Below, in pieces: positions 6,874 to 20,433 of a stretch of DNA of 64,000 bases. A model generated the notes under the pieces. That model did not search any database and was not told the origin of the DNA. It saw only the letters and a program-made list of their open reading frames with translations. Made by a program: the position numbers and the translations under genes. Every line of letters starts with the position of its first letter. Position 1 is the stretch's first letter. Source of the DNA: Halomonas salipaludis (GTDB taxonomy: Bacteria > Pseudomonadota > Gammaproteobacteria > Pseudomonadales > Halomonadaceae); the NCBI RefSeq assembly GCF_002286975.1, contig NZ_NSKB01000002.1, forward strand, positions 434,001 through 498,000. Reading direction: 5' to 3'.

Positions 6874-8403
6874 TCAGCTGACGATGCCGACGTGCCACGG
6901 CACGAATTCGTGATCCCCAAGCCCGAGCCGCTCGCTGCAGCTGCGCTCCCCGGAGGCCACACGCAGGATATGCGCGAAGATCTGCTCGCCCATGGCCTCG
7001 ATAGTGGCGCTGCCGTCGATGACCTGGCCGCAGTTGATGTCCATGTCTTCGCGCAGGCGCTCGAACATGGCGGTGTTGGAAGCCAGCTTGATGGTGGGGG
7101 CCGGTTTGGAGCCGAACATCGAACCACGTCCGGTGGTAAAGCAGATCAGATTGGCGCCACTGGCGATCTGTCCGGTCGCCGACACCGGGTCGTAGCCCGG
7201 GGAGTCCATGAACACGAAGCCCTTGGCATCGATCGGCTCGGCGTACTCGTATACCGCCTGCAGCGGCGTAGTGCCGCCCTTCATCGCCGAGCCCAGGGAT
7301 TTTTCGATGATGTTGGCCAGGCCGCCGGCCTGGTTGCCAGGCCCCACCACGCCGTTGAACTGACCACTGTGGCCACGGGTATACTCCTTCCACCACTCCA
7401 GACGATCGAGCAGCTTCTGGCCCACCGCTGGCGACACCGCGCGACGCGTCAGCATGAACTCGACACCATGGATCTCCGGCGTTTCCGACAGGATGGCGGT
7501 ACCGCCCTGGCGCACCAGGATATCCATGGCCGCCCCCAACGCCGGGTTGGCCGAGATCCCCGAGAAGCCGTCCGAGCCGCCACACTGCAGCCCGATGCTG
7601 AGGTGGCTGGCACTCACCGGCTGGCGCTCGATCCGGTTGGCCTCGGGCAGCATCGCCTCGATGGCGGCGATGCCAGCGGCGATGGATTCACGGGTACCGC
7701 CACTCTCCTGCATCACCAGGGTGCGCACGTTCGCCCCCACCTCGAGCCCCTGGGACTCGACCAGGCCCGACACCTGGTTGCGCTCGCAGCCCAGCCCCAC
7801 AATCAGCACCCCGGCGAAGTTGGGGTGCCGGGCATAGCCGGCCAAGGTGCGCCGCAGCAGGTCGAAGTGGTAACTGGGCGAGGACATCCCGCAACCGCTG
7901 GTCTGGGCGAAAGCCACCACGCCATCGACGTTGGGGTAGTCGGCCAGCCGCTCCGCGGTGAAATGGTCGGCGATATGCTTGATCACCGTGGCCGAGCAGT
8001 TCACCGAGGAGAGAATACCGATGAAGTTGCGCGTACCGACCCGGCCGTCCGGGCGCACAATACCCTGAAAGGTGGCCCGCTCGGCCTCCGGCACGTACTC
8101 CACCGGAAGCACGTCCTGGCAAAAGGCGGGATCGCGGTCGATCTCGGTCAGGGTGACGTTATGGGTATGTACATGCTCCCCGGGAGCAATGTCGCGGCCT
8201 GCCGCGCCAATCACCGTGTCGTACTTCTTCACCGACTCGCCGGCAGCGATCCGGCGGGCAGCGATCTTGTGCCCTGCCGGCACCTGGGCGCGGGATTTCA
8301 CCTCCAGCTCGGGCAGCCACTGACCGAGACCGACGCCATCGCGAGCGATCAGGACGTTGTCGTTGGCGTGCAACCGAATAAGCGTACGGGGGGGCATTTC
8401 CAT
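6874..8403 (-). CDS. garD: GarD/UxaA-family dehydratase (galactarate dehydratase-like)
   Basis: A 509-residue protein with an N-terminal SAF-like domain (about 1-100) followed by the UxaA/GarD catalytic region. Supporting segments are RPDGRVGTRNFIGILSSVNC near residue 128, AFAQTSGCGM near 178, GLGCERNQ near 215, QCGGSDGFSGISANPALG near 287 and FTTGRGSMFGSKPAPTIK near 430. Family members dehydrate galactarate or altronate, using an iron or other divalent metal bound by conserved cysteines. The two-domain single-chain form and length (about 520 in E. coli) favour GarD over UxaA. It is the first gene of the operon with ALDH, aldolase and tctCBA, divergent from a LysR gene. Confidence 0.85.
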   Translation of the reverse strand: MEMPPRTLIRLHANDNVLIARDGVGLGQWLPELEVKSRAQVPAGHKIAARRIAAGESVKKYDTVIGAAGRDIAPGEHVHTHNVTLTEIDRDPAFCQDVLPVEYVPEAERATFQGIVRPDGRVGTRNFIGILSSVNCSATVIKHIADHFTAERLADYPNVDGVVAFAQTSGCGMSSPSYHFDLLRRTLAGYARHPNFAGVLIVGLGCERNQVSGLVESQGLEVGANVRTLVMQESGGTRESIAAGIAAIEAMLPEANRIERQPVSASHLSIGLQCGGSDGFSGISANPALGAAMDILVRQGGTAILSETPEIHGVEFMLTRRAVSPAVGQKLLDRLEWWKEYTRGHSGQFNGVVGPGNQAGGLANIIEKSLGSAMKGGTTPLQAVYEYAEPIDAKGFVFMDSPGYDPVSATGQIASGANLICFTTGRGSMFGSKPAPTIKLASNTAMFERLREDMDINCGQVIDGSATIEAMGEQIFAHILRVASGERSCSERLGLGDHEFVPWHVGIVS

Positions 8404-8538: not shown

Positions 8539-9510
8539 ATGAGCGATATCGATCGCGTACTACGCTCGAACCTGAAGCTGCGCCACCTGCAGCTGCTGGT
8601 CGCACTGGATGAGTTCCGCCATATCGGCCGGGTGGCCGACTTTCTGTCGCTGACCCAGCCCGCGGTGTCGAAAATGCTGGCCGAGATAGAGCGCATGTTC
8701 GGCCTCAAGCTGTTCCTGCGCTCCACCCGCGGTACCGAACCCACGGCCTATGGCGATACGGTGGTGCGCTTCGCCCGCTCGGTACTGGCCGACTACGGCC
8801 GTACCCAGGACGAGATCGCCGCGGTGGAGAGCGGTGCCGCCGGTCGTGTCAGCATCGGCGCCATGGTGGTGGCAACGCCTGGCCTGCTGGCTCACGCCAT
8901 GCAGCTGCTCAAGACGCGCTCACCGCACAGCACCGCACTGATCGAAGAGGGCGACCTCAAGCGCCTGCTACCCCGCCTGCGCGTGGGTGAGCTCGACCTA
9001 CTGGTCGGCCGCCTCGAACCCGGCTACGCGGCACCGGACCTGGAAGCGCAAGCCCTTTACGACGAAGCGATGTGCGTGGTCGCCGCCCCGACGCATCCCG
9101 TATGCAGCATGCCCTCACCACAGTGGGCCGATCTCGCCGAGCTGGCGTGGGTCGTTCCTCCCCCTTGGGCGTCGTCGCGGATCAAGCTCAACCAGATGTT
9201 CTACAAGCATGGCCTCAACCCGCCCGCAGACCTGATCGAAACGGCCTCATTCCTCGCCACCCTGACCTTCGTGCAGCAGCGCCCGGCCCTGGGCTACCTG
9301 GCCCACGGCGTGGCGCGCCACTTCGAAGCACAGGGTTTACTCAAGGTCTTGCCGCTCGAGATTCCCATCGAGCTGCCACCGGTGGGGATCATCACCCTGC
9401 GTGGCAGAATCAAGACGCCGACCTGCCAGCAAGCGATCGAGTGCCTGTGGCAGGTGGCGAAGGAAAAGCAGGATGGCACTTGGACGTCTTGGCCTGACAT
9501 CGACTCATAG
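8539..9510 (+). CDS. LysR-family regulator (GbpR/TdcA-like), probable regulator of the aldarate operon
   Basis: A 323-residue LysR-type regulator. The winged HTH covers about residues 10-70 (LKLRHLQLLVALDEF, SLTQPAVSKMLAEIE), and the effector-binding domain fills the rest (GRVSIGAMVVATPGLL; LDLLVGRLEPGY). The combination NLKLRHLQLLVALDE with LTQPAVSKMLAEIE is typical of the GbpR-like subgroup that controls sugar and sugar-acid genes. It is divergent from garD with a shared operator-like region, so it most likely controls garD-tctA. An AGGGAGAG ribosome site precedes the ATG. Confidence 0.9.
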   Translation: MSDIDRVLRSNLKLRHLQLLVALDEFRHIGRVADFLSLTQPAVSKMLAEIERMFGLKLFLRSTRGTEPTAYGDTVVRFARSVLADYGRTQDEIAAVESGAAGRVSIGAMVVATPGLLAHAMQLLKTRSPHSTALIEEGDLKRLLPRLRVGELDLLVGRLEPGYAAPDLEAQALYDEAMCVVAAPTHPVCSMPSPQWADLAELAWVVPPPWASSRIKLNQMFYKHGLNPPADLIETASFLATLTFVQQRPALGYLAHGVARHFEAQGLLKVLPLEIPIELPPVGIITLRGRIKTPTCQQAIECLWQVAKEKQDGTWTSWPDIDS

Positions 9511-9514
9511 AGCG

Positions 9515-10522
9515 CTAGGAGATCTTCTTCACGAAATCCGGCATAGCAGGTTCCGGAAACACCGACAGCGACTTGAGGCGTTCGAGCGTCCGGTCGCGTG
9601 CGCGCACCAGGTGAGTACGCAGGGCCTCGACGGCGGCATCGCGTTGATCACGCACCAGCAAGTCCAGCACCAGTCGGTGCTCCGCCAAGCCTGGCAGGTG
9701 AACGCCTCGACCGATGGCCGAATAGAACAGTCGGTTGATGGTCAGGGGCATCTGCACCTGGCGCAAGGTGCTGGTCATGCGTCGATTGTCACAAGACGCG
9801 AGACAGCGAAGGTGCAGGTCGTCCTCGATACGATCGAGGACAACCAGATCGACGGCAGCATCGGCATACATCGAATCGATGCGCGCGATCATCTCACGCA
9901 GATCACCCAACGCCAGACTCGCGGCCGACTTGTGCAGAGCACGGGGCTCCAGCAGCCAGCGCATCTCGTAGTCGTCACGCACCTCCTGAGCCGTTACGGG
10001 TCCCGTCACCCACTGCGAGTAAGGCGCCTTCTCCACCAACCCCCGGTCACGCAGGCGCAGCAGCGCCTCGCGAATCACGCTGCGGCTTACATCGAAATGC
10101 TCGCTGGCTCGGCCCTCATCGACCTGGTAGTGCCCGAAGATCATGCAGGTGGAAAGCAGCTCGAAGAGCTCGTCATAGAGCTTCTCTCCCGCTGAGCGAG
10201 TGTCGAGCAACGGCGCACTAGGCGCCAGCCCCAGGGTTTCCGCGGTCAGCGTCCTACGCTTGGGTTCGGGAACATCGCCATGCCGGGCAACCACGTAGCC
10301 GCGTCCACTAAAACGCGCGATCAGGCCTGCGTCGCAGAGCAGATCCAGCGCCCTGCGCACCGGCGCCCGACTGGTGCCAAACAGCTCGGCCAGGGGCCTC
10401 TCGAGAAGTACCAGCCCCGGTTCGGCGGCCCCCGACTCGATGGCTTGCCCCAACACCTTGCGAATCACCGCATAGCGTGCTCCACGGTACTCCTCTTCGG
10501 GAGCCTGCGGGTGCGAACTCAT
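9515..10522 (-). CDS. GntR-family regulator with two winged-HTH segments and an FCD domain
   Basis: A 335-residue regulator. Residues about 15-90 look like a first GntR winged helix (LAELFGTSRAPVRRALDLLCDAGLI, then FSGRGYVV). A second follows at about 115-185 (EHFDVSRSVIREALLRLRDRGLV), then an FCD-type helical domain (AHKS/LRLRCLASCDNRR, residues about 190-325). Tandem winged helices before one FCD domain are uncommon. The ATG at MSSHPQ was chosen because the 33 upstream codons are low-complexity and poorly conserved in character. Its divergent position makes it the likely repressor of the amidase-CobW operon, presumably responding to a carboxylate or imide-derived ligand. Confidence 0.85.
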   Translation of the reverse strand: MSSHPQAPEEEYRGARYAVIRKVLGQAIESGAAEPGLVLLERPLAELFGTSRAPVRRALDLLCDAGLIARFSGRGYVVARHGDVPEPKRRTLTAETLGLAPSAPLLDTRSAGEKLYDELFELLSTCMIFGHYQVDEGRASEHFDVSRSVIREALLRLRDRGLVEKAPYSQWVTGPVTAQEVRDDYEMRWLLEPRALHKSAASLALGDLREMIARIDSMYADAAVDLVVLDRIEDDLHLRCLASCDNRRMTSTLRQVQMPLTINRLFYSAIGRGVHLPGLAEHRLVLDLLVRDQRDAAVEALRTHLVRARDRTLERLKSLSVFPEPAMPDFVKKIS

Positions 10523-10918
10523 TGCCTCTCTCACTCCTTGCTCATTCGCGTTCTGGCGTATGGGGCCGATTGTTGCACAGCCGCCCCTCGATGACCGTAG
10601 CAAGACGTAAGCCAGCACCACCTCAGTGTCTTTTTAAATACAAAATACCTTTATTTGTGCAGTGAACGAAAAATAAAGCAAGTGACATACGGCCACAAGA
10701 CAGAAATTTTCGAAAAACTCAGTCCTAATTCTCAATATTTACCTAAATTGCAGAAAATAAACCCAAGAAAGCAGCAAACATCCAGAACTTGGCATTTTTT
10801 AAAAAATGACTATTTTCAAAAAAGACCACAAAGTGCTAGCGTAAATGACAGCCAAACCATGCCGCCTCCGCCCCGGCGCAGCAGCAGGCAGACAACAAAG
10901 ACAACGACGGGATCTGTG
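10523..10918. promoter_or_regulatory. AT-rich divergent promoter region between gntR and the amidase operon
   Basis: About 400 bases separating two divergent starts. The stretch from about 10630 to 10860 is markedly AT-rich against high-GC neighbours. It contains a perfect 16-base palindrome, CATTTTTTAAAAAATG, at 10793-10808. No ORF with coding character is present; the amidase frame is open through it, but the translation is not amidase-like. This is the place to look for the GntR operator and the operon promoter. Confidence 0.55.
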
Positions 10919-12274
10919 ATGCACGACAACGCGACGCCTGACGCCCAGTGCCTGGCCGACGCCTTTCGACGCGGCAGCCTGACACCCTCAGCTTGGTTGC
11001 AGCAGCTCTGGCCACGCATCCATGCGACCCGTCATGTATTCACCCACCTGACGCCGACACGGGCCGAGCAGGAAGCGGCCGCCGCAACCCAGCGTTGGCG
11101 CGAGGGGCGCCCCATGAGCCCTTTCGATGGCGTGCCGATGGCCTGGAAGGACCTGTTCGATGTCGCCGGCACCGTCACTACCGCCGGGGCCGAGGTGCAT
11201 CGCCAAGCAGCCCCTGCTCCGCGCGATGCCACGCTGGTGGCCCAAGCCGCGCGTGCCGGCCTGGTATGCGTGGGCAAGACCAACCTCAGCGAACTGGCCT
11301 ACTCGGGGCTTGGCCTCAATCCCCATTTCGGCACCCCGACACTGCCGTGCGGCAACCGGCCGGCAAGGGTGCCCGGTGGCTCCTCCTCGGGTTCGGCAAT
11401 CGCCGTAGCACAGGGCCTCGTGCCCATCGCCATGGGCACCGACACCGCCGGCTCGATTCGCGTGCCTGCGGCATTCAATGGGCTAGTGGGCTTTCGGCCC
11501 AGTCAAGGGCGCTACGCCGGGGCAGGTGTCTTCCCCCTGGCCCACAGTTTCGACTGCCCAGGCCCGCTGGCGAGTAGTGTCGCCGACGTCGTCACCTTGG
11601 ACGCCCTGCTCTCGGGACGGCGCCGGGCGCTCCCTACTACCCCACTGACGCAACTGCATCTGGTAGTCGATCAGTCGCTACTCGATGACCTCGCCGTTAG
11701 CACAGTGGTACGCGATCACCTGGAGCGCGCCCTGAGCCAACTGACGGCAGCCGGCGCCAAGCTAGAGCGACGCCCCACCACCACTTTCAAGCGCGCCGTC
11801 GAGCACATTACCGAAGCGGGGTGGCTGGGTGGCGTCGAGGCATTTGCCCTGCATCGCACGCTCCTTGACTCAGTCAACGCCAAACGCCTGGACCCAAGGA
11901 TTCGCCAGCGCCTCGAAGGGGCGCGAGAGTTCGACGCCGAGCGAATCGAGTCTCTGCAGCGCCAACGCCAGCGGCTGACCGACGCCTTATGCGACGAGCT
12001 GGGCGGTGTGCTACTGGTGACGCCGACAGTAGGCCATGTAGCGCCGCCACTGGCTCCTCTCGAATGCGATGACAACCTCTTCTTTGCCACCAATGCCGCC
12101 ACCCTGCGCCTGACCATGCCCGGCAGCCTGATGGGCATGCCGGGCATCAGCCTGCCCTGCGGCCGAGACGCCCAGGGGCTGGCGAGCGGGCTGCTGCTAT
12201 CGGGACCCAGCGGCAGCGATGAGCGCGTGCTCAGCGCCGCGACTAGTATCGCCAAGCTGCTCTGTACCACCTGA
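10919..12274 (+). CDS. Amidase-signature family hydrolase
   Basis: A 451-residue amidase with the Ser-cisSer-Lys triad visible: Lys77 in [10 protein letters not shown], cis-Ser155 in [15 protein letters not shown] and nucleophile Ser179 in [11 protein letters not shown]. The family hydrolyses carboxamides to acid plus ammonia. It is the first gene of the 10.9-18.8 kb operon. Next to a cyclic-imidase-like protein, a half-amidase role (monoamidated dicarboxylate to dicarboxylate) is plausible but inferred. The ATG at 10919 is preferred; the longer frame from 10655 reads AT-rich non-protein-like sequence. MPPPPRR at 10859 is a second alternative. Confidence 0.88.
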
Positions 12275-12351
12275 CCTGGAGCGGGGAGGCGACGCCCGGC
12301 ACTTCCCCGCCGATTCACATGCAACGCCGGGCACCTGACAGGAGAATGACA

Positions 12352-13236
12352 ATGTCCAAGAAAGAGATCTTCGTTTCGATCGGTGTCGACGTGGATGCCG
12401 TGGCAGGCTGGCTGGGATCCTACGGCGGTGAGGACTCCCCCGACGACATCTCACGCGGGCTGTTTGCCGGCGAGGTAGGCGTCCCCCGATTGCTCAAGCT
12501 GTTCGAGCGCTATGACATCACCACCTCCTGGTTCGTACCAGGCCATTCGGTAGAGACATTCCCCGAGCAGATCAAGGCAGTGGCCAACGCCGGTCATGAG
12601 CTGGGGGTTCATGGCTACAGCCACGAGAACCCCATCGCCATGACACCCGAACAGGAGGAAGCGGTGCTCGACCGGGGTATCGAGCTGATCACCGAGATTT
12701 CCGGCAAGGCGCCTACCGGCTATGTCGCCCCCTGGTGGGAGTTCAGCCCGATCACCAACGAGCTGCTGCTCAAGAAAGGCATCAAGTACGACCACAGCCT
12801 GATGCATAACGACTTCACGCCCTACTACGTCCGGGTCGGCGACAAGTGGACCAAGATCGACTACAGCCAACACCCGTCGGCGTGGATGAAGCCGCTGGTG
12901 CGCGGCCAGGAAACCGATCTGGTGGAGATTCCCGCCAACTGGTACCTCGACGACCTGCCACCGATGATGTTCATCAAGAAGGCCCCCAACAGCCATGGCT
13001 TCGTCAGTCCGCGGCATCTGGAAGAGACCTGGCGCGACCAGTTCGACTGGGTCTATCGCGAAATGGACTATGCGGTCTTCCCCATCACCATCCACCCCGA
13101 TGTCTCCGGCCGGCCCCAGGTGCTGCTGATGCTCGAGCGGCTGATCGAGCACATGCGCAGCCACGATGGCGTGCGTTTCATGACCATGGACGCCATCGCC
13201 GACGACTTTCTCCAGCGCTTTCCACGTCAACGCTGA
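12352..13236 (+). CDS. Polysaccharide-deacetylase-fold hydrolase (HP0310 PgdA / cyclic imide hydrolase type)
   Basis: A 294-residue metal hydrolase of the NodB fold. Visible motifs are the Asp pair in [11 protein letters not shown] (about 8-18), the metal histidines in [10 protein letters not shown] (about 85-94), GYVAPWWEF and the closing [13 protein letters not shown] motif near 250. [20 protein letters not shown] is characteristic of the subgroup that includes Helicobacter HP0310 and, as I recall, bacterial cyclic imide hydrolases and PuuE-like allantoinases. It is probably cytosolic, as no signal peptide is present. A GGAGA site lies just upstream of the chosen ATG. Beside an amidase, ring-opening of a cyclic imide or ureide is the favoured inference; cell-wall deacetylation is less likely. 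Confidence 0.85.
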
Positions 13237-13257
13237 TAACGCAACAGGACCCTGATC

Positions 13258-14601
13258 ATGAACAACAACAATCCGGCCTACGCCGGGGCACCCTATGTGC
13301 CTGAAACCCCCAAGGCGAAGTCGATACGCTTCGCGACCTGGATCGCTTTCCTGGCCTGGGTCTCGGCGGTCTATGACTTCATCCTCTTCGGTACTCTGCT
13401 GCCCGAGCTGGGGCGGCACTACGGCTGGAGTGAGGCAGAGCAGGCCGGACTCGCCACCTGGGTCGCCGTAGGGACGGCGGTGGTGGCGATTTCCATCGGT
13501 CCGCTGGTCGACCGCCTGGGCCGCCGTGCGGGGATCATCTTCACCGTCACTGGGGCAGGCATCTGCTCGCTGCTGACCGCATTTGGCGGCGCCCTGGGCA
13601 AGGGGCCGCTGGTGCTGATTCGCTCGGCGGCGGGACTGGGCTACGCCGAGCAGACCGTCAACGCCACCTACCTGAGCGAGCTGTATGCGTCATCCGACGA
13701 TGAGGCCTTCAAGAAAAAACGCGGCTTCATCTATAGCCTGGTGCAGAGTGGCTGGCCGGTGGGGGCGCTGCTGGCGGCGGCGAGTTCGGCACTGCTGCTG
13801 CCGATCATCGGCTGGCAGGGGGTGTTCATCTTCGCCGTCGTGCCATCGCTGGTCATCGCCTTCATGGCCCGCAAATTGCCGGAGACCCCGCAGTTCGAGA
13901 TCCATCGCGAACTGACCCGGCTGAAAAAAGCCGGCGAGCATCAGCGGGTCGAAGCCTTGGCGGCGCATCACGACGTCAACCTGGAAGAGCATGCCAATAC
14001 CGGCCTGCGCGGCGCTTTCCACCGCAACTCGATTCGCGCCACCCTGGTGCTGGGCGGAGCCATCCTGCTCAACTGGTTCGCCATCCAGGTGTTCAGCGTC
14101 CTCGGTACCTCGGTGCTCATCAGCGTTCACCAGGTCACCTTCGAGAACTCACTGATCATCCTGATCCTCTCCAACTTCGCTGGCTTCTGCGGCTATCTCA
14201 CCCATGGCTGGCTGGGCGACCGCATCGGGCGTCGCAACGCCATCGGCTGTGGCTGGATGATGGGCGGCGTGGCCTTTGCCGCCATGCTGTTCGCCCCCAG
14301 CGCCTTCTGGCCGGTGGTACTGCTTTACAGCCTGGGCCTGTTCTTCCTGATCGGCCCCTATGCCGCGGCACTGTTCTTCATCAGCGAGAGCTTCCCCACC
14401 AGCACGCGTGCCTCGGCGGGCGCACTGATCAATGCCATGGGGCCGATCGGCGCCATCCTCTCAGGCGTCGGCGCCACGGCCATTCTCAGCGGCGGAGGCA
14501 ACTGGCAGTGGGCGGCACTGCTATTCGGCGCCCTGCCATGCCTGCTTTCCGGGCTGCTGATGTTCGCCGCTCGTCACGTCGACCCCGAGAGTGTGCGCTG
14601 A
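13258..14601 (+). CDS. MFS metabolite transporter
   Basis: A 447-residue, 12-helix major facilitator. The loop 2-3 motif appears as [12 protein letters not shown] (about 81-92), and its repeat as [14 protein letters not shown] in the second half, with [13 protein letters not shown] in the central loop. The metabolite:H+ symporter branch (sugar acids, aromatic acids) fits best. It lies 21 bases after the deacetylase gene and before two SDR genes, so it probably imports the substrate of this operon. The ligand cannot be read from sequence. Confidence 0.9.
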
Positions 14602-14638
14602 TGATGCTGCTCCCCGAATCGCTACCCGGAGACATATC

Positions 14639-15406
14639 ATGAACATGGAGACTCCCCCCACTGCGTTGATCACCGGTGCCGCCAGCGGCATCGGGCTGGC
14701 CCTGGCCATCGCCTGGGCGCGGCAAGGGGTGCAGGTGGTGGGCGGCTACTACACCGCCGACCCCCACGACCCTGCGGCCGCTCAGCAAGCACTCGATGAG
14801 GCCGGCAACGGCCTCATGGTTCCGCTGGATGTCGCCGACAGCACCTCCACTAGGGCCTTCGCCCAGGCGGCCATCGAACGCTACGGGCGCATCGATTACG
14901 TGGTGGCCAATGCCGGCATCCTGCGCCGTGCCGCTTTGGCCGAGATGAGCGATGCACGCTGGAACGCCATGCTCGACGTCGACCTGAGCGGGGTGATGCG
15001 CACCTTTCGAGATGCCGCACCCCATATGCATGAGGGCGGCAGCCTGGTGGCGATCTCATCGATCGCTGGCGGCGTCTACGGTTGGCAGGAGCATGCCCAC
15101 TATGCCGCGGCCAAGGCCGCGGTACCCGGCCTGTGTCGCTCGCTGGCGGTAGAGCTGGCGCCGCGGGGCATTCGCTGCAATGCAGTGATTCCGGGCCTGA
15201 TCGAGACGCCCCAGTCGCTGGATGCGGACAACTCGCTGGGCCCCGAAGGGCTGGCCGCCGCGGCGCGCAAGATACCGCTGGGACGGGTGGGACGTCCCGA
15301 TGAGGTGGCCTCGCTTGTGCGCTTCCTGTGCAGCGACGAGGCCAGCTACCTGACCGGCCAAAGCCTAGTGATCGATGGTGGCCTGACCGTGCGCTGGCCG
15401 GATTGA
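14639..15406 (+). CDS. Short-chain dehydrogenase/reductase, first of a pair
   Basis: A 255-residue classical SDR. The nucleotide loop is [12 protein letters not shown] near residue 10, NAG is in [10 protein letters not shown] (about 90), Ser is in VAISSIAGG, and YxxxK is YAAAKAAV (about 155). The C-terminal LVIDGGLTV is typical. It would oxidise an alcohol or reduce a ketone with NAD(P)H. The ATG at 14639 gives the normal SDR N-terminus and follows the MFS gene by 37 bases. The following gene is a second SDR, so the substrate probably carries at least one hydroxyl to be oxidised. Confidence 0.9.
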
Positions 15407-15426
15407 GAACGACGAGGAGAAACATT

Positions 15427-16179
15427 ATGAACAGACGACTCGCAGGACGCCGCTGCGTGATAAGCGGGGCCGCCAGCGGGATCGGCGCGGCCATCGCCGA
15501 GGCCTATGCCGCCGAGGGAGCTCGGCTGCTGCTTACCGACCGCGCTGCACCTCGCCTTGAGGAGGTGGCCGGGCGCTGCCGCGAGCTAGGCGCGGAAGTG
15601 GCCACCCAACTGGGCGATGTCGGCAGCATCGAAGGTGCTAGAGGCGGCGTAGAGGCCTGCGTCGAGAAGTTCGGCAGCATCGATGTATTGGTCAACAATG
15701 CCGGAATGCTGACCCAGGCGCCCTGCCAGGCGCTGAGCGTCGAAATGTGGGACGAGATGATGCGGGTCGATCTGCGCTCGGTGTTCATCGCCTCTCGCGA
15801 GGCGCTGCCGCATATGCTTGAGCAAAGCTGGGGGCGGATCATCAATATCGCCTCGCAGCTGGGCATAAAGGGTGGCGCCGAACTGTGTCATTACGCCGCC
15901 GCCAAGGCCGGGGTGATCGGCTTCACCAAGTCGCTGGCACTGGAGGTCAGCCAGCGGGGCGTGCTGGTCAACGCCATCGCCCCAGGTCCCATCGAAACCC
16001 CGCTGGTGGATGGCATCAGCACGGAGTGGAAAGCCGCCAAGGCGGCCGAGTTGCCTCTCGGACGCTTCGGCCGTGCCCACGAGGTAGCGCCCACGGCGGT
16101 GCTGCTGGCCAGCGAACCGGATGGCAATTTGTTCGTCGGCCAGACCTTGCATCCCAATTCCGGCGATGTGATGTCCTAA
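15427..16179 (+). CDS. Short-chain dehydrogenase/reductase, second of a pair
   Basis: A 250-residue classical SDR with SGAASGIGAAIAEAYAAEG near the N-terminus, NNAG in VLVNNAGMLT (about 86), catalytic Ser in INIASQLGIKG and YAAAKAGVIG (about 156). It ends with LHPNSGDVMS rather than the usual VDGG-type end, a departure that may change cofactor-end packing. A GAGGAG ribosome site precedes the ATG. It is cotranscribed 20 bases after the first SDR; the two are diverged paralogues rather than a recent duplication. Confidence 0.88.
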   Translation: MNRRLAGRRCVISGAASGIGAAIAEAYAAEGARLLLTDRAAPRLEEVAGRCRELGAEVATQLGDVGSIEGARGGVEACVEKFGSIDVLVNNAGMLTQAPCQALSVEMWDEMMRVDLRSVFIASREALPHMLEQSWGRIINIASQLGIKGGAELCHYAAAKAGVIGFTKSLALEVSQRGVLVNAIAPGPIETPLVDGISTEWKAAKAAELPLGRFGRAHEVAPTAVLLASEPDGNLFVGQTLHPNSGDVMS

Positions 16180-16195
16180 CCCAGGGGAGCGCTTC

Positions 16196-16507
16196 ATGTG
16201 TGGACTCTGCGGCCTGCTCGATGATGGCGGACACTGGGGCGATCCACTGGCCAGTGATGCTGGACGGCCGGCTCGCCAACAGCGCCTGCTGCGGCTCAAG
16301 GCCCTCAACCGGGTGTTGGGGTACTACCGACTGACGCTCAGCGACTTTCATGGTAGTGGCTCGCTACTGACGACACCCACTGGCAAACAAGCGATGGTGG
16401 CCAACCTCGACGACCTGTGGCGCCAGGTCGAAGCTCTGGGCGGCCGCCGCCTCGATCCTTTGGACCCTAACCTGCTGGAACACTTGGCGCGGGAGGCAAC
16501 GGCATGA
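16196..16507 (+). CDS. Small MCGLCG protein, partner of a CobW GTPase
   Basis: A 103-residue soluble protein beginning MCGLCGLLDDGGHWGDPL. It has a CxxC pair right at the N-terminus, nearby Asp/His residues, a basic arginine-rich helix (RPARQQRLLRLKALNRVL) and a C-terminal acidic end. No enzyme motif is recognised. The CxxC-His-Asp arrangement could bind a metal. The stop overlaps the CobW start (ATGA), so the two proteins are made coupled, suggesting a client, cofactor carrier or subunit for the GTPase. I recall similar small proteins beside CobW genes in other proteobacteria, but cannot name a function. Confidence 0.7.
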   Translation: MCGLCGLLDDGGHWGDPLASDAGRPARQQRLLRLKALNRVLGYYRLTLSDFHGSGSLLTTPTGKQAMVANLDDLWRQVEALGGRRLDPLDPNLLEHLAREATA

Positions 16508-17550
16508 GTACGCCCACCCCAACGGTCGACTACGGACGCATCCCCGTCGTGGTACTGACCGGCTTTCTGGGCAGCGGCAAGACCACGCTGCTGCAACGGC
16601 TGCTGGCCGACCAGCCAAGTGGCGAAACTGCGCTGCTGATCAACGAAGTCGGCGCGGTGGGTATCGATCATCGGCTGGTCACCGAGGTCGCCCCGGAGGC
16701 CAGGCTTCTGCCCAGCGGCTGCGTATGCTGCTCGATCCGTGGCGAGCTCAAGGAGGCGCTGCTGGAGCTGTTCGACATGCGCCAGACCGGCAAGCTGCCG
16801 CCTTTCTCGCGCATCGTGCTGGAAACCACTGGACTGGCCGATCCCGCCCCGGTGCTCGCCACCTTGAGTCATGATCCACAGTTGCGCCATCACTTCGACT
16901 TGGCGCGCATCGTGACCCTGGTGGATGCCCTCAACGCCGAGCAGCAGGAGCAGTCGCAGCCGGAGTGGTTGGCTCAGGTGGCGGCCGCCGACCTGCTGCT
17001 GGTCAGCAAGGCCGACCTGGTGGAAGACGCCCGCTGCGCGGCGCTGATGGAGCGGTTGACGGCGCTCACCCCCAGTGCCGAGCGCGCCTTGGCCGCTTCG
17101 GTGGGGGCGGGCGACACCCGACTCCTGGTCGCGCCTGGTGCAGAGGCATCCGGCACGCCAGGCGATGGCCGCGGCTGGCAGCTCTCACTGCAACGAGCGG
17201 CCAGCGATCTTGCCACCTTTCCCCAGGTCTCTCGCCACGCGCAAGCCACCAGCTTCGTCCTCGAGCTGGACACGGAACTCGACTGGGGGCACTTCGCGCT
17301 GTGGCTGTCGCTGCTGCTCAACGCCCACGGCGACCGGGTGTTGCGCGTCAAGGGACTGCTCGACCTGGGGCCACAAGACCCGCCGGTAGTGCTGCACGGC
17401 GTGCAGCATGTACTCTATCCACCCCAACATCTGGCCGCGTGGCCCGACGGTGAGCGGCGTTCGCTACTGGTCTTCATCACCCGCGGACTGACCAGAGGCG
17501 AGGTCGAGGGCTCGCTACACACCTTCATGGCGGCACTCGCCAGGCGCTGA
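16504..17550 (+). CDS. CobW/P47K-family GTPase (COG0523), putative metallochaperone
   Basis: A 348-residue G3E GTPase. Walker A is GFLGSGKTT at residues 20-28, the metal-binding CxCC motif is GCVCC at 72-76 within LPSGCVCCSIRGEL, the switch region is ETTGLADPAP and the guanine-specificity motif is SKADLV. A C-terminal CobW_C domain follows (about 235-345). COG0523 proteins insert Zn, Co or other metals into client enzymes. It lies in an operon with a NodB-fold metal hydrolase and a CxxC miniprotein, so one of these may be the client (inference). No Zur-like box was recognised upstream. Confidence 0.88.
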   Translation: MSTPTPTVDYGRIPVVVLTGFLGSGKTTLLQRLLADQPSGETALLINEVGAVGIDHRLVTEVAPEARLLPSGCVCCSIRGELKEALLELFDMRQTGKLPPFSRIVLETTGLADPAPVLATLSHDPQLRHHFDLARIVTLVDALNAEQQEQSQPEWLAQVAAADLLLVSKADLVEDARCAALMERLTALTPSAERALAASVGAGDTRLLVAPGAEASGTPGDGRGWQLSLQRAASDLATFPQVSRHAQATSFVLELDTELDWGHFALWLSLLLNAHGDRVLRVKGLLDLGPQDPPVVLHGVQHVLYPPQHLAAWPDGERRSLLVFITRGLTRGEVEGSLHTFMAALARR

Positions 17551-17569
17551 AATGGGAGCACAGTACAGC

Positions 17570-18751
17570 ATGGCCTCAAGCACCTCGTCCCCGGTGACAC
17601 TGCGCGTCCTCGGCACCTCGGTCACCCTGCTGGAGCAGATTCGCGAGCGCGCCGAAGCCGAGCTTGGCATTCGCCTGGAATATATCGTGCGCAATGCCGC
17701 CGAGGCTCAGCGTATGGCCGTGCTGCAGCCCCAGGACTACGATATTTACGACCAGTGGTTTCACGATATCGACTTCGTATGGCCCGCGCGGGCGGTACAG
17801 CCCATCGATGTGCGTCGCATTCCGCTGTGGGACGAGGTCACTCCCCTGGCCACCAACGGCCACCTCCATCATGGCCTGCTCGGACGCGGCAGTGTCCCGG
17901 CTCGGCGGCTGTTCGTACAAGCGGACGGCACGCTGAGCGACACACCTAGCGATGCCATCAGCATGTTGCCCCTGACCCATAACGTCGATAGCTTCGTCTA
18001 TTGCGATGAGCCCCTGCCAGACGGCTTGCGCCCCGACGACGCCAGCTGGGGGTGGCTGCTCGACCCACGCTTCGCCGGCAAGGTCGCCCTGCAGGGCGAA
18101 CCGACCATCGGCGTACTCGATGCGGCCCTGGCCGCGACCGCCCAGGGCGAACGCTTTGCTGATCTCAGCAACCTGAGTCTGGCCGAAATCGACCGACTCA
18201 CCGACCTGCTGGCCGAAAAGCGCCGCCAGGGCCACTTCGCCGCCTTATGGGCCAACGAAGAAGAAGCCATGCACCTGATGGCAGATCACAAGGTATGCCT
18301 ACAGAGCTTATGGTCTCCGGCGCTGATGCGCCTGCATGACTCACCGCGCCGCTACCGCCTGGCCACGCCCAAGGAGGGCTACCGCGCCTGGTTCGGTGGC
18401 ATGAGCCTGTCGTGCAACCTCGACGGTCGGGCCCTGGATGCCGCCTACGACTATCTCAACTGGTGGCTGTCCGGCTGGCCTGGCGCGGTGATGGCCCGCC
18501 AGGGCTACTACATCTCCACTCCGCAGCGTACCCGCGCCCACCTCAGCGACGACGAGTGGGGCTACTGGTATGCCGGCGAGCCCGCGGAGAATACCCTGGT
18601 AGGCGCCGATGGCTACCCGCTGATAGCGCCGGGCACCCTCCGCGACGGCGGCGACTACCACGCGCGCATGAACCACGTCGGGGTGTGGAACACCGTCATG
18701 GACGAACATAACTACCTGGTTCGCAAGTGGACCCAGGCGCTGTTTCGGTAA
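17570..18751 (+). CDS. Extracellular-solute-binding-protein fold protein without signal peptide
   Basis: A 393-residue protein with the layout of PotD/Fe-type periplasmic binding proteins: SPVTLRVLGTSVTLLEQI at the N-terminus, DIYDQWFHDIDFVWP, PLTHNVDSFVYC, a hinge near GWLLDPRFAGKVALQGEP and YLNWWLSGWPGAVMARQGYY near the C-terminus. No Sec, Tat or lipoprotein signal precedes the mature-like start, so it should stay in the cytosol. The ATG at 17570 has GGGAG 11 bases upstream; the ATG at 17552 adds only MGAQYS, also no signal. It is the last gene of the operon, and no ABC permease accompanies it, so it may be a sensor or enzyme-associated ligand binder. Confidence 0.75.
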   Translation: MASSTSSPVTLRVLGTSVTLLEQIRERAEAELGIRLEYIVRNAAEAQRMAVLQPQDYDIYDQWFHDIDFVWPARAVQPIDVRRIPLWDEVTPLATNGHLHHGLLGRGSVPARRLFVQADGTLSDTPSDAISMLPLTHNVDSFVYCDEPLPDGLRPDDASWGWLLDPRFAGKVALQGEPTIGVLDAALAATAQGERFADLSNLSLAEIDRLTDLLAEKRRQGHFAALWANEEEAMHLMADHKVCLQSLWSPALMRLHDSPRRYRLATPKEGYRAWFGGMSLSCNLDGRALDAAYDYLNWWLSGWPGAVMARQGYYISTPQRTRAHLSDDEWGYWYAGEPAENTLVGADGYPLIAPGTLRDGGDYHARMNHVGVWNTVMDEHNYLVRKWTQALFR

Positions 18752-19152: not shown

Positions 19153-20433
19153 TCAGGCCGCGCGGGTTTGCGCAGCAGTACGCTCGCGATTGTAGGTGCG
19201 TTCGTCGAGTTCGTGCTCGCTCTTGCCGACCAGGACCGACACCATCAGGTCACCGCAGACATTGACGGTGGTACGGGCCATGTCCAGGATGCGGTCGATA
19301 CCAGCAATGATCGCCAGCCCCTCCAAGGGCAGGCCAACGGTGGTCAGCACCAGCGACAGCATGATCAGCCCCGCCCCCGGCACGCCGGCGGTACCAATCG
19401 ATGCCAGGGTGGAAGTCATGATGATCAGCAGGTAGTCGGACAGCGCCAAGTCGATGCCGAAGGCCTGGGCGATGAACAGGGCACAGACGCCCTGATAGAG
19501 GGCGGTGCCGTCCATATTGATGGTCGCGCCCAGCGGCAGCACAAAGCTGGAAACCCCTTTGGAGACACCGAACTCTTCCCGCGCGGCCTTGATGGAGGCC
19601 GGCAGGGTTCCGGCGCTGCTGGTGGTGGTGAAGGCTACCGCCGCGGGGCTGATCACCCCCTTGAGATAGCGCACCGGATTGAGACGGCCCAGGCTGCTGA
19701 TCAAGCCGGAATAGAACACCACCACGTGAATGAGACTGCCGATGTAGACCACGGCGATGACCTTGATCAACGGCAGCAAGATGTCGATGCCATAGGTGCC
19801 GGCCACCCAGGCCATCAGGCCGAACACGCCGTAGGGTGCCAGCTTCATCACCAGCTCGGTCAGCTTGTACATGCCTTCCGCCAGGCTCTCGATTACCTGC
19901 ACCGCCGGCTTGGCCCTATCGCCACACAGGTTCAGGGCGATACCCAGCCCCAGGGCGAAGACGATGATCTGCAGGATGTTGCCGGAGGCCAGGGCAGCGA
20001 CCGGATTGGTCGGCACCATGTTGAGCAGCGTCTCGACCAGGGTCGGCGCCTCACCGGCGGTGGGCGCACTGCTGGCAGCCGTCATGTTGACGCCCTCGCC
20101 CGGGGCGAAGAGCGTGCCCATGCCCAGACCGATGCTGATCGCAATCGCCGTGGTGCCGAGGTAGAGCGCCAGTGACTTCAAGCCGATGCGTCCCAGCTTG
20201 CGGGTGTCCTGCATCGAGGTAACACCGGCCACCAACGAGCAGAACACCAGCGGCACGATCAGCATCTGGATGGCGTTGAGGAAGAGTGTTCCGATCGGTT
20301 TCAGCAGCTCGGCGTCGGGGCCCAGAATCGCCCCCGCCAGCATGCCGAGAGCCATGCCGATCAGAATCTTCTTCCACAGCGCCAGCCTGCCCCAGAAACC
20401 GGCAGGACGGGTCTCAGTGATAGTGGAATCCAT
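19153..20433 (-). CDS. gltP: Dicarboxylate/amino acid:cation symporter (DAACS family)
   Basis: A 426-residue inner-membrane symporter. The serine-rich re-entrant loop TTTSSAGTLPAS is near residue 280 and the substrate/cation signature LGATINMDGTALYQ near 310; AGVPGAGLIML and GIDRILDMARTTVNV follow, with eight or so membrane helices overall. Members carry glutamate/aspartate (GltP) or C4-dicarboxylates (DctA) with H+ or Na+. The partner sensor has an amino-acid-type binding domain, so glutamate/aspartate is favoured (inference). GGAG lies 6 bases before the ATG. Transcription is probably sigma-54 dependent from a promoter about 85 bases upstream. Confidence 0.92.
   Translation of the reverse strand: MDSTITETRPAGFWGRLALWKKILIGMALGMLAGAILGPDAELLKPIGTLFLNAIQMLIVPLVFCSLVAGVTSMQDTRKLGRIGLKSLALYLGTTAIAISIGLGMGTLFAPGEGVNMTAASSAPTAGEAPTLVETLLNMVPTNPVAALASGNILQIIVFALGLGIALNLCGDRAKPAVQVIESLAEGMYKLTELVMKLAPYGVFGLMAWVAGTYGIDILLPLIKVIAVVYIGSLIHVVVFYSGLISSLGRLNPVRYLKGVISPAAVAFTTTSSAGTLPASIKAAREEFGVSKGVSSFVLPLGATINMDGTALYQGVCALFIAQAFGIDLALSDYLLIIMTSTLASIGTAGVPGAGLIMLSLVLTTVGLPLEGLAIIAGIDRILDMARTTVNVCGDLMVSVLVGKSEHELDERTYNRERTAAQTRAA

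Follow-up and report, generated by a model that had tools for sequence, protein, structure and literature searches.

Blastobacter reportedly metabolizes cyclic imides by a half-amide route, and among cyclic-imide bacteria we know of no gene cluster that unites SDRs, a CobW GTPase, a cytosolic binding protein and the small MCGLCG protein here called MINI. Bacterial cyclic-imide metabolism has in common with the operon proposed below the chemistry of an imidase followed by a half-amidase. The imidase of Pseudomonas putida YZ-26 is cited in a study of the lower nicotinate (hxn) pathway of Aspergillus nidulans, which comprises HxnW, HxnM and HxnN and whose imidase, HxnM, comes after an SDR step and before an amidase step (PMC9304392). 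An SDR, an imidase-family hydrolase, an AS-type amidase and MFS importers are common to the hxn pathway and the bacterial operon described below, and the hxn sequence of hydroxylactam, imide, half-amide and acid is the one that we propose for the operon; the hxn pathway differs in being fungal, in having a single SDR and, as far as the available text of that study goes, in the absence of any mention of MINI, CobW or a binding protein (PMC9304392). The upstream pyridine enzymes named in the same text (HxnS, X, V and T) have no counterpart among the operon's eight genes, on which ground nicotinate itself is not supported as the substrate and we do not class the operon with nicotinate pathways. 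Helicobacter pylori offers a second comparison: HP0310 (HpPgdA) aligns without gaps with the hydrolase of the operon, HP0309 of the same gene run is annotated as an N-carbamoyl-D-amino acid amidohydrolase in the available part of one report (PMC3866246), and another, in its available part, counts HP0312 among the COG0523 proteins (PMC2770081); however, HP0310 is named a peptidoglycan deacetylase, and no SDR or importer is found among HP0309-HP0312. The latter report, again in its available part, also describes Fe-type nitrile hydratase and its COG0523 activator Nha3, a nitrogen-compound enzyme with a dedicated, adjacent CobW-family GTPase, although the target enzyme is unrelated and MINI is not mentioned there (PMC2770081).

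The window, a stretch of 64,000 nucleotides from Halomonas salipaludis, holds eight genes, all on the + strand, at 10919-18751, with a divergent GntR gene beside them. Pfam and NCBIfam matches at the limits used back every gene name but that of MINI. The eight-gene operon outlined by an earlier, sequence-only reading stands, as does its placing of an HP0310- or imidase-type hydrolase (DEAC) next to an amidase, SDRs and an importer. The gene order was found again in dozens of loci and, together with the presence of MINI and DEAC in the same genomes (10 of 398 in a draw of Pseudomonadota), this makes the operon more than a product of chance.

DEAC, MINI and CobW form a fixed trio. Besides the 398-genome draw, a second one placed MINI and DEAC (at least 61% identical) in the same 3 of 274 genomes, a fourth genome lacking MINI and having a DEAC relative of only 41% identity. 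CobW lies on MINI's strand, overlapping it or at most 0.7 kb away, in 12 of the 12 distinct loci of both draws. Among 80 loci retrieved by DEAC similarity, MINI and CobW accompany DEAC wherever the contig is long enough (77/77); taking the start codon closest to the MINI stop, 61 of 75 loci have the MINI and CobW frames overlapping. Since the query was an alignment of 11 DEACs whose loci all possess MINI and CobW, and the loci are the best 80 of at least 580 relatives (E 1e-3), this set is biased to close relatives and the genome draws carry the co-occurrence argument. The host genome contains a second trio locus and six CobW_C matches. The co-occurrence of the deacetylase, the MCGLCG protein and CobW in other genomes, which the sequence-only reading had named as a check and whose absence it would have taken as refutation, is thus found; CobW is tied to the hydrolase as that reading had supposed, and MINI, for which the link to the hydrolase is just as tight, belongs to the proposed maturation set.

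DEAC (12352-13236, + strand) carries a NodB homology domain (PF01522, 63.1 bits against a cut-off of 23.1). Its match to the HP0310 structure 3qbu reaches 530 bits over 291 residues and is followed in the PDB by 3rxz (128 bits) and PuuE (65 bits), whereas the named chitin and peptidoglycan deacetylases score 37-41 bits, which places DEAC nearer to HP0310 than to sugar deacetylases in this structure-sequence search. It is 77-82% identical to the DEACs of the other 10 aligned loci, and D13, D15, H87 and H91 are invariant in the 11 sequences and an outgroup of 29% identity; we take the Asp-His-His residues among these four to be the metal ligands. HP0310 has an obstructed active site and did not act on GlcNAc, chitotriose, acetyl-polyamines, N-acetyl dipeptides or allantoin (PMC3084791), and the available part of the hxn study gives it as the closest structural homologue of HxnM, so that the kinship of DEAC to HxnM is drawn through HP0310 alone (PMC9304392). 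Taken together, DEAC is probably a cyclic imidase, cyclic-imide hydrolysis being predicted from its homologies.

The remaining enzymes are an amidase-signature hydrolase (10919-12274, + strand; NF004766 above cut-off, PF01425), which may act as a half-amide amidase, and two NAD(P)-dependent dehydrogenases, SDR1 (14639-15406, + strand; PF13561) and SDR2 (15427-16179, + strand; PF00106); the importer is an MFS protein (13258-14601, + strand; PF07690 and PF00083). Related loci mostly keep the SDR pair and the amidase or an asparaginase and swap the importer, which may be of MFS, ABC, Mhp1-like NCS1 or TRAP type. By profile, the best 80 of at least 580 relatives include 67 with an amidase, five with an asparaginase and eight with neither. 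SDR1 is 47% identical to SDRb, and SDR2 50% identical to SDRa, of the ABC-type locus L021, the SDR pair being orthologous between MFS-type and ABC-type loci. Lactam-opening genes adjoin some loci. Genes for caprolactamase CapA/CapB, above NCBIfam cut-offs, are found in L090, and L070 has homologues of them at 73-78%; a 5-oxoprolinase-like carboxyltransferase is present in 15 of 17 ABC-type loci versus 1 of 56 MFS-type loci, and its place beside the ABC-type loci may simply reflect shared ancestry. The nearest PDB entry to the NCS1 importer of L024 is the hydantoin permease Mhp1.

The gene set, its conservation, the co-occurrence, the importer swapping and the homologies were established directly. 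On balance we favour the reading that the operon serves the uptake and breakdown of a small cyclic amide, likeliest a hydroxylated lactam or a cyclic imide, and that MINI and CobW mature the imidase. Its substrate, step order, metal delivery, binding-protein role and regulation are all inferred. The reading is favoured by the co-occurrence of MINI and DEAC, the MINI-CobW overlap and the importer swapping around an orthologous SDR pair; by the Mhp1-like importer, CapA/CapB and the carboxyltransferase; and by the precedent of HxnW, HxnM and HxnN, in the available text, together with the inactivity of HP0310 on sugars and the other compounds tried (PMC9304392, PMC3084791). The MFS protein would bring in the substrate, one SDR would turn a ring carbinol adjacent to the nitrogen into a carbonyl, yielding an imide, DEAC would open the imide to a half-amide, and the amidase would convert the half-amide to ammonia and a dicarboxylate, the second SDR oxidizing a further hydroxyl. 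The sequence-only reading had put SDR oxidation after deamidation; by the hxn precedent, in the part of the study available, ring opening is probably preceded by the step of at least one SDR, which forms the imide (PMC9304392). The eight loci without amidase or asparaginase, and five without the binding protein, count against this pathway.

The ring may instead be that of a hydantoin-type ureide, opened by the hydrolase in the manner of the allantoinase PuuE, with amidase-type enzymes taking the ureido or amide product. The appearance of PuuE among the matched structures of DEAC and the Mhp1-like importer are suggestive of such a route, as is L083, which encodes an arylmalonate decarboxylase/racemase-type protein (PF17645; its match to the Asp/Glu/hydantoin racemase model stayed below cut-off). 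The amidohydrolase annotation of HP0309 suits a ureide no less than an imide. Yet allantoin is not acted on by HP0310 (PMC3084791) and in 72 of the 80 loci the partner is an AS-type amidase or an asparaginase, enzymes appropriate to half-amides, and we regard a ureide as rather unlikely.

The CobW protein (16504-17550, + strand; PF02492, PF07683), whose gene shares 4 bases with that of MINI (16196-16507, + strand), has the features of COG0523 proteins, namely a Walker A motif at residues 20-27, CVCC at 73-76 and a CobW_C domain. Gene linkage predicts that it may deliver metal to an enzyme encoded next to it, and in the favoured pathway it and MINI would jointly mature the imidase by supplying metal. 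The COG0523 family has several targets and includes members tied to zinc homeostasis, according to the available part of the report cited above (PMC2770081). MINI and CobW might thus serve another metalloenzyme or act as a general reserve in zinc shortage, a possibility with which the six CobW_C matches of the host agree; we nevertheless find it unlikely, as DEAC stays linked to them in the 12 loci of the two draws and in 77/77 long loci while amidase, SDRs and importer vary.

MINI (103 residues) has no Pfam or NCBIfam match at the limits used, no sequence match in the PDB at E 1 and, for its structure model, no PDB fold match by Foldseek at E 0.001 or better. M1, C2, C5, G6, W14, R27, N38, T62, G63, W75 and D87 are invariant in 40 sequences, and M1, C2, C5, W14, G63, W75 and D87 also hold in a wider set of 20. 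Confidence in the model is low at the CxxC end, which leaves metal binding as a guess based on the two cysteines; MINI may be a metal-handling partner of CobW for DEAC. We know of no MINI in fungi and, HxnM being in DEAC's family, the enzyme type may work without it. MINI could otherwise be an N-terminal-cysteine enzyme or subunit, such as a small Ntn-type amidotransferase-like partner, rather than a metal protein, given some likeness to class II amidotransferases. In 75 of 76 MINI-labelled loci the residue after the start is a cysteine, a count that is partly circular as starts were chosen by the MCxxC motif, and the closer 40 MINIs have invariant N, T, G and D, not all of which hold in the wider 20. 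The MINI of L065 has a leucine codon at that place, which could be a TTG start. Cys2 is present, but an identification as a small class II amidotransferase (Ntn fold) was rejected, given the lack of fold and sequence matches at these limits; the N-terminus of the model is of low confidence. An Ntn domain of 103 residues would be short and MINI is linked to CobW, which makes a cysteine enzyme of any such kind quite improbable.

The last gene encodes cSBP (17552-18751, + strand; PF13343 barely above cut-off), a protein with the fold of PotF/PotD by Foldseek. It resembles a rhizobial periplasmic binding protein and is 28% identical to pSBP, the periplasmic binding protein of L021. Unlike the polyamine-type PotF/PotD, it occurs in MFS-type operons without an ABC importer and no signal peptide could be made out by eye, either in the window copy or in 29 aligned homologues. 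Lacking a visible export signal like that of ABC binding proteins, it is a predicted cytosolic relative of the periplasmic protein of ABC-type loci and would keep the substrate or an intermediate within the cell. It was not found in L048, L079, L096, L103 and L105 (about 20.9 kb per locus).

The GntR/FCD regulator (9515-10522, - strand, start picked by eye; PF00392 in two stretches, a GntR-type HTH, and PF07729, in a scan of 9515-10474) would sense the substrate or an intermediate. A homologue is present in 72 of the best 80 of at least 580 relatives. The sequence AAATGTACATTT occurs without mismatch 34 times in 83 loci (1.58 Mb); 33 of these copies lie 33-298 bases from a GntR frame and one is in a contig without such a frame. 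Some of the Pseudomonas and Enterobacterales loci have it in the gap that separates GntR from the first gene (26 of 45 divergent MFS-type loci, by a counting rule that misses a few); it was not found in the ABC-type loci tried. As a conserved operator in the window it was rejected, the only match (10804-10815), a weak candidate operator, having 3 mismatches and being not above chance.

That DEAC deacetylates peptidoglycan or polysaccharide, as its family name and the name of HP0310 imply, is very improbable: DEAC does belong to PF01522, and earlier H. pylori mutant and crude-extract work, as related in the available text, assigned HP0310 to peptidoglycan, but the operon also holds an importer, SDRs, an amidase and GntR, no signal peptide is seen in DEAC by eye, and HP0310 is inactive on GlcNAc, chitotriose and acetylated polyamines (PMC3084791).

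The sequence-only reading knew of no described pathway with the full gene set. Its enzymes do have a precedent in hxn, in the part of that study available (PMC9304392); a cluster in bacteria that joins MINI, CobW and a cytosolic binding protein to such enzymes was not found described in the open-access literature searched, and a search for the Rhizobium leguminosarum pRL12 tags returned nothing. The operon would be a bacterial counterpart of a known enzyme logic to which MINI, CobW and the cytosolic binding protein are added. More tentatively, MINI could represent a new family of metallochaperone partners, in which a free N-terminal cysteine and the CxxC take metal and the CobW GTPase drives loading of the NodB-fold hydrolase, and HP0310 could belong to a cytosolic imide/lactam salvage unit and be no peptidoglycan deacetylase. 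To our knowledge, no NodB-fold hydrolase with GTPase-dependent maturation was known before. The operon is widespread (at least 580 relatives of DEAC at E 1e-3), and the analysis proposes a testable function for it, points to a probable target of a subgroup of CobW GTPases and to a partner protein that has no family, and provides a concrete alternative to the peptidoglycan role assigned to HP0310 in H. pylori.

The eight genes and divergent GntR regulator of the operon (10919-18751, forward strand) described in the sequence-only reading were all located as described. Its first product is an amidase (NF004766; 584 bits against an NCBIfam cut-off of 559), and Pfam and NCBIfam models identified the NodB-domain hydrolase (DEAC), an MFS protein, two SDRs, a CobW GTPase carrying a CobW_C domain, and a signal-less binding protein of the SBP_bac_6 family (cSBP; 26.2 bits against a cut-off of 24.6). 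The 103-residue MCGLCG protein (MINI), whose gene overlaps that of CobW by four bases in the window, matched no family in Pfam or NCBIfam. Convergent with the operon end is a gene recognized by eye as dicarboxylate/amino-acid symporter-like (19153-20433), which would fit a dicarboxylate product. An altronate dehydratase-like gene (6874-8403, by eye) adjoins a LysR-like regulator gene (8539-9510).

The co-occurrence of DEAC, MINI and CobW in other genomes, proposed earlier as a check, was found in both genome draws and in every sufficiently long locus of a larger set. In 398 Pseudomonadota genomes, MINI (alignment A1, E 0.001) and DEAC (E 1e-60; 66-100% identity) were each detected in ten, the two sets being identical, and neither in the remaining 388. 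Four of the ten belong to one genus, and the probability of such agreement by chance, approximately 1 in 10^19, or 1 in 10^12 by genus, is too strong a figure given the relatedness of the genomes. A draw of 274 class members, which shares genomes with the first, including the window's own, yielded MINI in three genomes and DEAC of at least 61% identity in the same three; one of these also has a 43% DEAC relative, and a fourth genome has a 41% relative only, without MINI. CobW is encoded on the strand of MINI in all 12 distinct loci of both draws, its open frame overlapping that of MINI or beginning within 4 bases of it in ten and starting 236 and 636 bases after it in the others (L012 and L015, respectively). 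DEAC is on the opposite strand in one draw locus, L006.

Scanning genome contigs with a DEAC profile returned at least 580 relatives. By profile, the best 80 of these loci comprise DEAC in 80, CobW in 77, MINI in 76, GntR in 72, cSBP in 71, both SDRs in 70, an amidase in 67, an asparaginase in five, and neither amidase nor asparaginase in eight. Since L037 also has a MINI, overlooked by labelling, and the contigs of L047, L062 and L073 stop roughly 2 kb past DEAC, MINI and CobW are present in 77 of the 77 long-enough loci. Three Halomonas loci have DEAC on one strand and MINI with CobW on the other; the remaining 73 labelled MINI genes share DEAC's strand. This set is biased because it was found with DEACs from loci carrying the trio, a bias from which the genome draws are free.

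DEAC aligns without gaps over 291 residues with Helicobacter pylori HP0310 (3qbu) at 530 bits, on a scale where DEAC homologues of 73% and 80% identity score 526 and 565 bits. The HP0310 study reports a protein without signal peptide, related to the allantoinase PuuE, with an obstructed active site and inactive on GlcNAc, chitotriose, acetylated polyamines, N-acetyl dipeptides and allantoin; it mentions clusters in which genes for polyamine importers and D-Ala-D-Ala peptidases occur, and its authors still held a peptidoglycan role possible (PMC3084791). HP0312 is listed as a COG0523 protein in PMC2770081. PMC3866246 annotates HP0309 as an N-carbamoyl-D-amino acid amidohydrolase, HP0311 as hypothetical and HP0312 as ATP-binding, and lists all three as absent from H. 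cetorum. According to PMC9304392, the Aspergillus nidulans SDR HxnW yields 3-hydroxypiperidine-2,6-dione, the proposed substrate for ring opening by the imidase HxnM, and the amidase HxnN frees ammonia; among known structures HxnM has its nearest homologue in HP0310 (see also PMC8478523, a second paper on the hxn genes). HxnW, HxnM and HxnN provide a precedent for the order of steps proposed for the operon.

Among 91 loci of the tree, the importer is of MFS type in 57, ABC in 22, MFS plus NCS1 in three, NCS1 in one, TRAP in one and other in seven. SDR1 and SDR2 correspond to SDRb and SDRa of the rhizobial locus L021, the sole ABC-type locus compared (47% and 50% identity; crossed pairs, 34-36%). 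The nearest PDB match of the NCS1 protein of L024 is the hydantoin permease Mhp1 (E 1e-58), although the NCS1 and allantoin models of NCBIfam score the protein below their cut-offs. L090 encodes the caprolactamase subunits CapA and CapB above NCBIfam cut-offs (L090:12341-16208), beside an old-yellow-enzyme protein, a biotin carboxylase and carboxyltransferases of 5-oxoprolinase/urea-amidolyase type; L070 has homologues of 73% and 78%, respectively (L070:14023-17851, minus strand), and L089 and L098 weaker relatives (29-35%). The flanking sequence fetched with each locus includes the carboxyltransferase in 15 of 17 ABC-type loci versus 1 of 56 MFS-type loci. The caprolactamase and carboxyltransferase neighbours point to cyclic amides, but most loci have no neighbour of this kind. 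L083 encodes an arylmalonate decarboxylase/racemase-like protein, and L006 and L096 flavin monooxygenase-family proteins. About 4 kb past the main cluster of L024, a second, distant deacetylase (29% identical to the window's DEAC) is accompanied by a urea carboxylase-associated protein and an amidase (L024:14366-16201).

The GntR regulator (9515-10522, reverse strand) combines two GntR-type HTH stretches with an FCD domain, a layout that, to our knowledge, is not usual. The palindrome AAATGTACATTT occurs in 34 copies in 83 loci. On the side of the GntR frame that faces the first operon gene, 33 of the copies lie at a distance of 33-298 bases, and the last is on a contig without GntR; by the script's rule, it is present in 26 of 45 divergent MFS-type loci. 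Its best match in the window, at 10804, has 3 mismatches, which is chance level over the window.

The cSBP model (pLDDT 88.9) adopts a PotF/PotD fold, and the protein shares 28% identity with L021's periplasmic binding protein. By eye, no signal peptide was apparent in 30 aligned rows. Because cSBP is present in MFS-type operons without an ABC importer, it stands there outside any importer; five loci with the trio, each about 20.9 kb long, lack it. In MINI, M1, C2, C5, G6, W14, R27, N38, T62, G63, W75 and D87 are invariant among 40 aligned proteins, and M1, C2, C5, W14, L41, G63, W75, D87, P88 and L89 are kept among 20 more diverse sequences. Upon removal of the initiator Met, Cys2 should become the N-terminus. 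The AlphaFold2 model (mean pLDDT 83.5; residues 1-3 and 6-12 below 50) has a well-predicted body of a long helix, three strands and two helices. Foldseek found no PDB match at E 0.001 (best, 0.34), nor did the MINI profile match any PDB sequence at E 1. We infer that MINI binds metal.

H. salipaludis harbours a second trio on contig C8 (L003:2438-10223), where one strand carries an asparaginase gene, a frame judged GAF-like by eye, genes for a TRAP importer and an epimerase-type dehydrogenase, and those for DEAC, MINI and CobW. Its DEAC, 80% identical to that of the window, clusters in the DEAC tree with three Halomonas loci (L084, L086 and L087; 100/98), and the window's DEAC occupies a separate, weakly supported branch whose nearest rows by path are from Pseudomonas. 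A resolvase and transposase-like frames (by eye) sit beside this second locus at L003:40-1889. The distribution is patchy, as neither DEAC nor MINI had a match in eight same-family genomes listed from the 398-genome draw. Plasmid-borne copies of the operon occur in Klebsiella (L018; all eight genes) and Pantoea (L019; no amidase annotated), and in Halomonas litopenaei SDR2 is followed by a 262-residue frame that matched no Pfam family at E 1e-5 (L084:13951-14739).

Altogether, the operon most likely serves a cyclic amide and couples the imidase to a maturation set; the substrate, the metal and the maturation itself are all proposed. The enzyme logic has a precedent in the fungal pathway; what is new is the MINI-containing trio, the conservation of that trio and the link to HP0310.
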